A DNA stretch of 64,000 nucleotides from Bordetella parapertussis (GTDB taxonomy: Bacteria; Pseudomonadota; Gammaproteobacteria; Burkholderiales; Burkholderiaceae_C): contig CAMCTC010000006.1 in NCBI GenBank assembly GCA_945878355.1, positions 24,836 to 88,835 on the forward strand. Direction: 5' to 3'. The notes beneath the pieces are model-generated. The model searched no databases. It worked only from the letters and a program-made list of their open reading frames with translations, and was not told the DNA's origin. Positions 24,181-43,723 of this stretch are shown here, one piece after another. Made by a program: the position numbers and the translations under genes. The stretch's first letter is position 1. Each line of letters starts with the position of its first letter.

Positions 24181-24256
<76 letters not shown>

Positions 24257-24319: not shown

Positions 24320-24395
24320 GTCCCCTTCGTCTAGAGGCCTAGGACACCACCCTTTCACGGTGATTACAGGGGTTCGAATCCCCTAGGGGACGCCA
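24320..24395 (+). tRNA. tRNA-Glu (anticodon UUC)
   Basis: 76 bases with CCA encoded. The acceptor stem GTCCCCT pairs with AGGGGAC; the anticodon loop CTTTCAC gives UUC; the T arm is GGGGTTCGAATCCCC. It sits close behind the gltX gene and just before a strong terminator. Confidence 0.95.
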
Positions 24396-34925: not shown

Positions 34926-35006
34926 CTCTCAAGTCAATGTGGCTTGGCCGCTTTGCTTGACCCCCCATGGGGGGCGGCCGGCGTCGGCCGGCCTCGGGGC
35001 GCTCAG
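34926..35006 (+). repeat. Dispersed palindromic repeat, copy 1 (intergenic)
   Basis: 81 bases nearly identical to copy 2 at 43307-43386. The core is a hairpin: GGCCGGC (34976-34982), tetraloop GTCG, GCCGGCC (34987-34993), preceded by a C-run/G-run pair CCCCCC-AT-GGGGGG. It lies between the response-regulator remnant and the 3' end of the Bug gene. Confidence 0.85.
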
Positions 35007-35016
35007 TGCCGCGCGC

Positions 35017-36006
35017 TCAATCGGTGGTGCCGGCCAGCCCCAGCCGGTCGACCACCCGCCGCTCGCTCTCGTAGGCCTTGCGCAACGAGCGGGCATAGTC
35101 TTCCGGGCCCAGGTAGCTGATCTCCTGGTCGTAGAGCGCCAGCTCGGCCAGGTGTTCGGGGTCGTTCATCGCACTGCGGAAGGCGTCGTGCAGGATTTGC
35201 ACGACGGGCGGTGGGATGCCGGCAGGCCCGGCGATGCCATAGGGCGAGCTCGCGACGATGCCGTGACCCAGCTCTTTCAGCGTGGGCACGCTGGGCCAGC
35301 GCTTGCTGCGGTGTTCGCCGAAGGTCACCATCAGGCGCAGTCGGCCGCTGTCGACGAAGGGTGCGAAGCCGTTGGAGTTCACGCCGACCATCACCTGGCC
35401 CGACGAGACCGCGATCATCTGCTCAGCCGTGCCCTTGTAGGGTACGTGGATGTAGCTCAAGCCCCGCTTGCCGAACAACTCGTCGACCACCCCATGCGGC
35501 GTGGTGCCGGCGCCGTTGGTGGCGATGGTCAGCATGCCTGGGTGGGCCCGTGCATAGGCGAACAAGTCGTCCAGGCTGCGCAGACTGCTGGCCGCTGGCA
35601 CGACGATGCCGAAGGTCACGCCCGAGAGCTGGATGATGGGCGTGGTGTCGCGAATCGGGTCCCACAGCACCTTGCGGGTCCAGGGCGCGCGCAACACGGT
35701 CTGCGGCATCTGTGCCAGCGTGTAGCCGTCGGGCGCGGCCTGCTGCAGGATGGGCATTGCGAGCGTGCCGCTGGCGCCGCCCCGGTTCTGCACCAAGATC
35801 TTCTGACCGAGCTGGCGCGCCGCGGCTTCGCACAGCACGCGAAAGCTCAGGTCGGTGGCGCCACCGGCTGGCCAGGGCAGCCAGAGATTGATCGGCCGGG
35901 TCGGGAAGCGCTGCGGCGCCTGGGCCAGCGCGGCGCCCCAGGCTGGCCCCAGTGCTGCGGTGGACAGCCAAGCCAGCAGCTGTCGGCGCTTGCCTGCGCG
36001 GTTCAC
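35017..36006 (-). CDS. Bug-family tripartite tricarboxylate transporter binding protein
   Basis: 329 residues. An Arg-rich N-region and hydrophobic helix ending in ALAQA form the export signal. Then the Bug/TctC fold: RFPTRPINLWLPWPAGGATD, QNRGGASGTLA, AAPDGYTL, and HVPYKGTAEQM. These periplasmic proteins bind carboxylates or related small acids. No TctA/TctB permease is nearby, which is usual for this hugely expanded family in Burkholderiales. The ligand cannot be inferred. Its 3' end lies 10 bases from repeat copy 1. Confidence 0.9.
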   Translation of the reverse strand: MNRAGKRRQLLAWLSTAALGPAWGAALAQAPQRFPTRPINLWLPWPAGGATDLSFRVLCEAAARQLGQKILVQNRGGASGTLAMPILQQAAPDGYTLAQMPQTVLRAPWTRKVLWDPIRDTTPIIQLSGVTFGIVVPAASSLRSLDDLFAYARAHPGMLTIATNGAGTTPHGVVDELFGKRGLSYIHVPYKGTAEQMIAVSSGQVMVGVNSNGFAPFVDSGRLRLMVTFGEHRSKRWPSVPTLKELGHGIVASSPYGIAGPAGIPPPVVQILHDAFRSAMNDPEHLAELALYDQEISYLGPEDYARSLRKAYESERRVVDRLGLAGTTD

Positions 36007-42685: not shown

Positions 42686-43723
42686 ATGCTGCTGTTCTCG
42701 ATCGACCCTGAATGCGGTTTTGCGTCGGCGCTGGCCGACGCGCTGGACGAATCGTTGTCGCCGCACGAGGATAGAAGCTTCGAGGATGGCGAGCACAAGC
42801 TGCGACCGCTGGTCGACCCGCGCGGCGCCGATGTCTATGTGCTGAGCAGCCTGCACGGCAGCCCGCGCTTCAGCCCGCACGACCGCTTGTGCCGTTTGCT
42901 GATGTTCGTCGCGACCTTGCGCGATCACGGCGCGGCCCGCGTGACCGCGCTGGTGCCGTATCTGGCCTACGGTCGCAAAGACCGCCAGACCCAGCCCTTC
43001 GATCCTGTTGCGCCACGCTACCTGGCGCAGCTTTTCGAGGCGGTCCGGGTAGACCAGTTGGTCGTGCTCGAAGCCCATAATCTGGCGGCTTTCCAGAATG
43101 CTTTCCGTTGCCCGACGCTGCATCTGGCCGCGCATCTTGCCTTCGATGCCGTCGTGCCAGCCTGGGTCGGTGACCGACCGGTGGCGATCGCCTCGCCCGA
43201 TCCCAGTGGCGTCAAGCACGCCCAGCTGTGGCAGGCGTCGCTCGAACAGCGCCTGGCGCGGCCGGTCGGCTTCGCGATGGTCGACAAGCGCCGCAGCGCA
43301 GGGCAACTCTCAAGCAAATGTGGCTTTGCCACTTTGCTTGATCCCCACGGGGGGCGGCCGGCTTCGGCCGGCCTTGGGGCGTTCAGCAGCTGCGGTCTGG
43401 TGGCCGGTGAGGTTGAAGGCATGGCCGTGCTGCTGATCGACGACCTGATCGCCAGCGGCCAGACGCTGCGCCATGCCGCGCAGGCATTGCGCCAGGCCGG
43501 CGCACGCGAGGTGATGGCCTGCGCAGCGCATGGCTTGTTCACGGGCCAGGCCGCCGAGGCCTTGGCCGATCCGTCGCTAGCGCGGGTGTTGGTGACCGAC
43601 AGCGTGCCTGATCTGCGCTTGCCGGCGACGGCGCAGGTCCGCGACAAGCTGCAGGTCGTCACGGTGGCGCCGTTGTTCGCGCAGGCCGTCAGGGCTTGCC
43701 GCGACGCTTGGCCGCAGCGCTAG
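42686..43723 (+). CDS. Ribose-phosphate pyrophosphokinase homologue with in-frame repeat insertion
   Basis: 345 residues. PRPP-synthetase features are present: LVPYLAYGRKDRQ (90-101), catalytic KRR at 201-203 in AMVDKRRSAG, and the PRPP-binding LLIDDLIASGQT (249-260). Between the last two, residues ~208-234 (LSSKCGFATLLDPHGG and onward) are encoded by repeat copy 2; homologues go almost directly from KRRSAG to a short linker and GEVxG. That is the flexible catalytic loop, so activity may be altered or lost. It differs from the housekeeping Prs type and may be a second copy in this genome. The stop overlaps the stop of the convergent esterase gene by two bases. Confidence 0.85.
   Translation: MLLFSIDPECGFASALADALDESLSPHEDRSFEDGEHKLRPLVDPRGADVYVLSSLHGSPRFSPHDRLCRLLMFVATLRDHGAARVTALVPYLAYGRKDRQTQPFDPVAPRYLAQLFEAVRVDQLVVLEAHNLAAFQNAFRCPTLHLAAHLAFDAVVPAWVGDRPVAIASPDPSGVKHAQLWQASLEQRLARPVGFAMVDKRRSAGQLSSKCGFATLLDPHGGRPASAGLGAFSSCGLVAGEVEGMAVLLIDDLIASGQTLRHAAQALRQAGAREVMACAAHGLFTGQAAEALADPSLARVLVTDSVPDLRLPATAQVRDKLQVVTVAPLFAQAVRACRDAWPQR
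43307..43386 (+). repeat. Dispersed palindromic repeat, copy 2 (inside the PRPP-synthetase gene)
   Basis: 80 bases, same orientation as copy 1 (34926-35006) with a few substitutions and one length difference. The hairpin is GGCCGGC (43356-43362), loop TTCG, GCCGGCC (43367-43373), a C(UUCG)G-type very stable stem-loop. It is translated without a stop in the host gene, with the same reading frame (HGGRPASAGLGA) that is open in copy 1. Confidence 0.88.

Follow-up and report, generated by a model that had tools for sequence, protein, structure and literature searches.

A dispersed 75-bp hairpin repeat inserted in frame in a PRPP synthetase-like gene and frequently located at stop codons

In-frame landing in genes is already known for bacterial repeats. 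The RPEs of Rickettsia, about 150 bp in length, are described as inserting in frame into unrelated genes (PMC10969869). The published description of the GTAG REPs concerns hairpin repeats near the 3' ends of ORFs, in which the REP end often supplies a TAG stop, and hence already reports a stop-codon link similar to the one described below; some REPs lie inside ORFs, and dimers or groups of them there encode 20–30 residues (Di Nocera et al. 2013, PMC3733652). Enterobacterial RU-1, RU-2 and RU-3 are described as small mobile repeats with open frames that become fused to genes, and such fusions were reported not to be found inside conserved domains (Delihas 2007, PMC2759123). The BRE is described as a repeat of 75–91 bp at full length, with partial copies of 40–60 bp and tandem copies separated by no or few bases. 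It is usually intergenic, with some copies overlapping ORF ends by a few bases and some wholly within coding sequence; its reported hosts are Bordetella, Polaromonas, Delftia, Acidovorax and Rhodoferax, with about 29 copies in Polaromonas sp. JS666 (BMC Genomics 2011, 12:207, PMC3110155). Here we describe a repeat whose tie to stop codons has been little explored.

The window, by which we mean the entire 64,000-nucleotide stretch of Bordetella parapertussis DNA that was analyzed, contains a PRPP-synthetase-like ORF of 345 codons (42686–43723, + strand) that carries a repeat insertion. The protein scored 171.8 bits against TIGR01251 (cut-off 113) and matched the Pfam domains Pribosyltran_N, Pribosyl_synth and Pribosyltran. 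Its score did not reach the cut-off of any other ribose-phosphate diphosphokinase model listed, and the gene, referred to here as prs, is therefore probably a paralogue of the housekeeping Prs. The original prediction was that an element of about 80 bp occurs both in this gene and in an intergenic location, and the repeat is real: the copies at 43307–43386 and 34926–35006 lie on the same strand and are identical in 71 of 81 columns (E = 1e-23 in the window), and the core hairpin pattern matched the window twice compared to 0.00 matches expected from 100 shuffles. Comparison with homologues set the size of the net unit at 75 bp (43307–43381, + strand), running from CTCTCAAG to GGGGCG and translated as LSSKCGFATLLDPHGGRPASAGLGA, since the final TTCAG (43382–43386) is the old target, which reads CTCAG in the two close relatives L001 and L002. 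Accordingly, the gene gained 25 residues rather than about 27 (345 codons versus 320 in each of these relatives), and the insert begins four residues past KRR, after KRRSAGQ, rather than directly behind KRR. We take the segment around KRRSAGQ to be the catalytic flexible loop, a role known from PRPP synthetase structures; with this placement, the prediction that a palindromic mobile repeat has entered that loop in frame is upheld.

L001 and L002 expose the empty site at prs. Apart from the insert, the coding sequence of the window gene aligned to theirs without gaps, and their proteins are 87% identical to the window protein. The junction reads ...GGGCA GCTCAGC... in both relatives and ...GGGCA ACTCTCAAG...GGGGC GTTCAGC... 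in the window. A second allele, P0001, which is 98% identical to the window protein and belongs to a cluster of 35 members, contains the same insert, and therefore an assembly error in a single contig does not account for the insertion. The flexibility of this loop in the structure model described below would suit natural variation in loop length, but the extra residues were missing from all 10 of the best homologues aligned, each from another genome (L001–L010). Moreover, the repeat is dispersed across genomes instead of being a conserved part of Prs genes, with its letters recurring at more than 100 other places. Loop-length variation is thus refuted, and we assign it practically no probability.

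AlphaFold2 modeling of the window protein with 35 sequences gave a pTM of 0.82. Residues 204–236, which enclose the insert, had pLDDT values below 50, while the rest was well folded. K201, R203, D252 and D253 were all present and invariant in a 35-row alignment. The predicted enzyme would carry 25 extra residues beside its active site, with a possible effect on function. The dN/dS of the window gene relative to L001 and L002 was 0.14–0.145, and three insert-free pairs gave 0.11–0.14. The window protein deviated at 9 of 160 columns that are invariant in L001–L010, G174S and R178H among them, and P0001 deviated at 5 of the same 160 columns; when single homologues were left out in turn, they deviated at 0 to 13 columns, with L010 the extreme. 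The nine changes hint at relaxed constraint. They would also fit an insertion that was merely part of the decay of a gene that was already a pseudogene, but the frame stays open with its 75 bp, the dN/dS of 0.14 resembles that of insert-free relatives, and the second allele, which stands for a cluster of 35 members, has the same insert. Prior decay is therefore unlikely in our view; the gene does not appear to have been a free-running pseudogene for long, and a weakened constraint is possible.

The insertion rule was established by comparing empty and filled sites. Three such comparisons were clear (prs with L001/L002, L102 with L224, and L141 with L263) and two were rough (L176 with L264, and L185 with L226). 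At L102 in G002 compared with L224 in G027, the empty site reads ...GCG/CTCAATG, where the slash marks the insertion point. At the clear sites the unit had been added directly 5' of CTCA, a position immediately 3' of TGAG on the other strand, and the target was not duplicated. Read on the strand opposite prs, the element is TGAG/CGCCCC...GCTTGAGAG, and its old target at 43382–43386 (− strand), with the repeat directly 3' of it, is CTGAA in the window and CTGAG in L001 and L002. Of 92 distinct junctions at which the end was full-length, 78 had TGAG; the base in front of it was C in 49 and T in 22 of those 78. From these data we conclude that the element inserts directly 3' of (C/T)TGAG without target duplication. 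Some distant copies are located at TAA or TAG stops, and thus TGAG is not the whole rule. MITEs are defined by terminal inverted repeats together with a target duplication. The element is not a MITE, as CTCTCAAG and GGGGCG, its two ends, do not form inverted repeats and the clear empty sites lack duplication. IS200/IS605-type elements insert 3' of a short motif without duplicating the target, which is the pattern observed at the three clear and two rough sites.

The repeat consists of two unlike hairpins with a small CCCC/GGGG stem between them. In the prs copy, hairpin 1 spans 43310–43341 (TCAAGCAAA.GTGGC / GCCACTTTGCTTGA) and hairpin 2 spans 43356–43373 (GGCCGGC-TTCG-GCCGGCC). The whole prs copy folded with a z score of −5.0, and none of 200 shuffles folded as well. 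Among 54 copies, 11 of 26 pairs had changed on both sides, compared to a mean of 2.3 for shuffled data and 3–4 for slid partners; an alternative fold with long-range CCCC/GGGG pairing gave 9 of 25, against 2–4 for slid partners. Most of the covariation came from hairpin 1 (8 of 14 pairs in the 54 copies), hairpin 2 being little variable, with just 1 of 7 pairs changed on both sides. The net length of 99 complete copies ranged from 70 to 79 bp: 60 were 75 bp, 12 were 70 bp and 27 fell within 71–79 bp; 14 in all were shorter than 73 bp. Head-to-tail tandem copies share ends with zero spacing. The consensus, a 25-codon prototype, is open in four of six phases. The 12 copies of 70 bp (L154, L158, L159, L168 and others) form a subtype in which hairpin 1 is shortened (TTTGCGGCTTGA); it would shift the reading frame and is absent from the 12 copies in coding sequence described below. 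In the partial copies L107, L110, L118 and L127 only the first ~49 bases match. L118 and L127 continue into a different hairpin (CTGACGCGAAGCGGCAGG), which is also present in L298, and hairpin 2 therefore seems exchangeable.

We examined where copies sit with a codon-model gene finder made from the loci, which was run on 1.19 Mb of G027 and on 120 distinct copies, these being what remained of 137 after removal of copies whose flanks were identical or that lay too close to the end of a contig. Of the 120, 42 were at a stop codon, 66 were intergenic and 12 were in coding sequence, i.e. in a spanning ORF. The 4177 YTGAG sites in the 1.19 Mb of G027 comprised 188 at stop codons, 548 intergenic and 3441 in coding sequence. 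Hence copies avoid coding sequence (12/120 versus 3441/4177, p = 4e-67) and, outside it, are in excess at stop codons (42/108 copies versus 188/736 sites or 25.5%, p = 0.0016). In the 42 cases the preceding gene ends at the target's own TGA, and therefore its product is unchanged. A covariance model built on 54 diverse copies (R1) supplied 60 further copies from eight other genomes. In 34 of these an ORF stop was no more than three bases away from the junction, exactly at the TGA position in 28 (p = 3e-4 compared to 188/736 sites) and within three bases in 6 more. The far end of the same 60 copies had an ORF stop in one case, and control YTGAG sites elsewhere in the same loci were at an ORF stop in 27 of 238. 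Placement within three bases of a stop was uneven among the genomes: 9/9 in G128, 7/8 in both G126 and G160, 5/10 in G191, 1/3 in both G060 and G225, and low in G269 (3/12) and G077 (1/7). At least five orthologous pairs occur among the copies, and so they are not all independent. Selection alone, through survival of insertions at harmless sites, may explain the stop-codon and coding-sequence pattern partly or wholly; the other cause considered is insertion that prefers stop-codon contexts.

The same placement could instead mean that the repeat functions in RNA at 3' ends, as a terminator or mRNA stabilizer selected behind stops, in which case the prs copy would be a stray. A stop within three bases in 34 of 60 copies, reaching 9/9 in G128, agrees with this explanation, as do the stable and covarying hairpins. 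However, the consensus has no T run after the hairpins, copies differ between homologous sites of relatives, few copies in G269 and G077 are at stops, and most copies are placed to the exact base, a precision better explained by target choice. Although somewhat less improbable than prior decay of prs, a selected RNA element is doubtful as the primary explanation, and we prefer that of a mobile repeat entering at its target.

Each of the 12 copies in coding sequence adds 75 bp by alignment, a uniformity that is partly built in because the spanning-ORF search favors in-frame lengths. By our reading six are in mid-gene (prs, L136, L183, L082, L091 and L098), and six are near the end of an ORF that may be over-extended (L086, L112, L132, L105, L108 and L146). 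Three copies are read forward, prs and L136 in one phase and L183 in another, and nine in reverse; altogether five phases are used, the fifth of which is open in L086, where a TGA has become CGA. A single preferred reading frame is rejected by these five phases, and also by the finding that the reverse-strand peptide retrieves conserved proteins. Searches with the forward peptide identified 31 proteins, including P0001, and those with the reverse peptide 22; many further peptide matches lack a Pfam domain and could be spurious ORFs. In proteins with known Pfam domains, the peptide lies within or next to a CheB receiver domain (P0014), fasciclin (P0012, P0018), EamA transporters (P0024, P0031), a histidine kinase ATPase domain (P0025), PIN (P0047), a short-chain dehydrogenase or SDR (P0052) and an RsmE-type methyltransferase domain (P0041); in P0007, which we read as ProB, it lies ahead of the kinase domain. 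A strict frame-independent search, the threshold of which misses prs, found 11 genes that run into the repeat: eight read through, two stop inside it (L089 and L172) and one stops at the junction, with no clear mid-gene frameshift among the 11. The original suggestion that the element can serve as coding filler thus holds in that other genes carry it in frame, but this is the exception, a spanning ORF being present for 12 of the 120 copies.

Some proteins retrieved by these searches have unusual arrangements. In P0002, P0013, P0022 and P0028 the repeat joins RatA-like (Polyketide_cyc) and cyclic-nucleotide-binding domains in frame, possibly a gene fusion made by the repeat. In P0033 and P0040 a second repeat-like coding stretch (HPGARRDP...VDPGLRRDDGR) encloses the reverse-frame peptide and follows a FixQ-like domain. 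In P0037 a TsaD-family domain is accompanied by two tandem peptides, both derived from hairpins but unlike each other.

The second copy in the window is intergenic, 76 bp in length (34926–35001, + strand), and its right end is 15 bp away from where the ORF at 35017–36006 (− strand), which we read as TctC-like, has its stop codon. The same frame had been predicted to be open in both copies. Because the intergenic copy is 1 bp longer, this is true only of its 3' half, which is open in HGGRPASAGLGA; its 5' half is in another frame (SQVNVAWPLCLTP). This copy folded with a z score of −2.1, and 6 of 200 shuffles folded as well. Measured as the distance between matches rather than by base-by-base alignment, its flanks are closer together in relatives, at 41 bp in G027 versus 258 in the window and 136 bp in G001 versus 209. 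A search of the whole window at the Rfam gathering level returned two tRNAs only, and a loose threshold around the repeat copy returned just two chance-level matches. The window has adjacent tRNA genes at 24181–24253 and 24320–24392.

A DNA search of the genomes behind L001–L010, with up to 40 candidates scored in each genome, gave at least 30 matches in G001, 44 in G002 and 35 in G008, and none among the matches scored in the remaining seven. Within the genus of G002, 14 of 21 genomes had matches, at least 26 of them in G027. A family-wide DNA search, considering the best three candidates per genome, found the repeat in at least 14 of 299 genomes. The covariance model found more: of 250 genomes sampled from the family, 69 contained related copies, as did 4 of the 81 genomes in the genus to which the Polaromonas record L007 belongs. 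The order-wide DNA search (at least 1 of 399, namely G002 itself, with the best two candidates per genome) says little. Phage records had no match to the repeat, exact hairpin 1 was absent from viral contigs, and plasmid records had two matches. On the IncP plasmids pAKD16 and pAKD34 the space separating the convergent genes selA and sdpA is taken up by a related copy, which in pAKD16 adjoins the TAA stop of sdpA. Short words of the repeat retrieved two papers from the literature texts, both unrelated. We consider it slightly better than an even chance that the repeat is the already named BRE, and that the prs copy is of the kind in coding sequence that the BRE paper mentions. Its length of 70–79 bp, its spacer-free tandems, its partial copies and its occurrence in both the family and the genus of L007 are in keeping with that identity. 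However, none of the 81 genomes of that genus showed about 29 copies among the best 57 candidates each, although JS666 may be outside the 81, and the likeness is one of description.

The signature of the HUH/Y1 class is an element with a hairpin near each end that inserts 3' of a short, fixed motif and produces no duplication. As the repeat matches this signature, we infer HUH/Y1 chemistry, namely single-strand cut-and-paste by a transposase acting in trans, of the IS200/IS605 or RAYT type. Y1_Tnp genes were present in 10 of 16 genomes, but no repeat copy was near any of 12 Y1_Tnp loci, whose flanks were examined for 0.1–1.5 kb per side, and several of these loci have their own, different repeats. 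Of the 21 genomes in the genus of G002, 20 have a Y1 gene, including six of the seven without the repeat. RAYT as the mobilizer is therefore unsupported both by copies near the 12 loci and by presence and absence. No Y1 link was found in the genomes, and such a mechanism is suggested by the insertion signature. At L273, L274 and L198, Y1 transposase-like genes have other repeats, inverted or direct, on either side (GGGTTCAGATTTGAGACCCGGTCCC; GACCTGACCCC), which may represent additional REP-like families of these genomes.

Taken as a whole, the repeat is likely a non-autonomous hairpin mobile repeat of Burkholderiales that inserts 3' of YTGAG, with prs a surviving hit in coding sequence. The element enters directly 3' of (C/T)TGAG and leaves the target unduplicated, and where the TGA is the stop codon of the preceding gene, as it often is, the product is kept intact. 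Since 75 bp is a multiple of three and four phases are open, hits within genes can survive as 25 extra residues. The prs gene is such a survivor, its insert situated in a loop that the structure model leaves disordered. Copies within genes are probably tolerated rather than useful, and copies behind stop codons may serve as 3' mRNA hairpins. A more tentative proposal, which we hold to be possible but not probable, is that the element is doubly silent: it would use a stop-like target (YTGAG, or TAA and TAG in distant copies) and insert just behind it, so that the product of the gene stays intact, and its 25 codons and open phases would make hits in genes survivable. It would then be adapted to dense bacterial genomes and be a source of 25-residue insertions in active-site loops. 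An exact insertion rule makes the mobilizer findable and suggests a route of spread in gene-dense genomes, and prs, CheB, PIN and SDR offer natural experiments on how enzymes cope with a foreign 25-residue segment in conserved domains.

The resemblance to RPEs that had been proposed holds for the in-frame habit, as the repeat occurs in frame in several unrelated genes, but the nearest described elements are the REPs and the BRE. Compared with RPEs, and by description only, the present repeat is 75 bp, belongs to Burkholderiales and has most of its copies outside coding sequence. It is similar to the GTAG and CGTC REPs in having hairpins near ORF ends and some copies within ORFs. In contrast to those REPs, it is a 75-bp unit of two unlike hairpins, and its tag is TGAG (78 of 92 full-length ends), which is already present in the empty site; the unpaired GTAG or CGTC end tag of those REPs is lacking. 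A RAYT gene flanked by copies, the arrangement of a REPtron, was seen at none of the 12 Y1_Tnp loci, some of them with flanks of just 0.1 kb. Whereas RU fusions are described as lying outside conserved domains, several copies of this repeat lie inside them. The repeat resembles the BRE, again by description only, in length, tandem habit, partial copies, host group and copies in coding sequence: spacer-free tandems, Betaproteobacterial hosts and coding-sequence copies are shared, and the range of 70–79 bp overlaps partly with 75–91 bp. The insertion rule, the stop-codon link and the hairpin covariation do not figure in the available portion of the BRE account (PMC3110155). If the repeat is the BRE, then these three features, together with an insertion in an active-site loop, are what the present analysis adds to its description.
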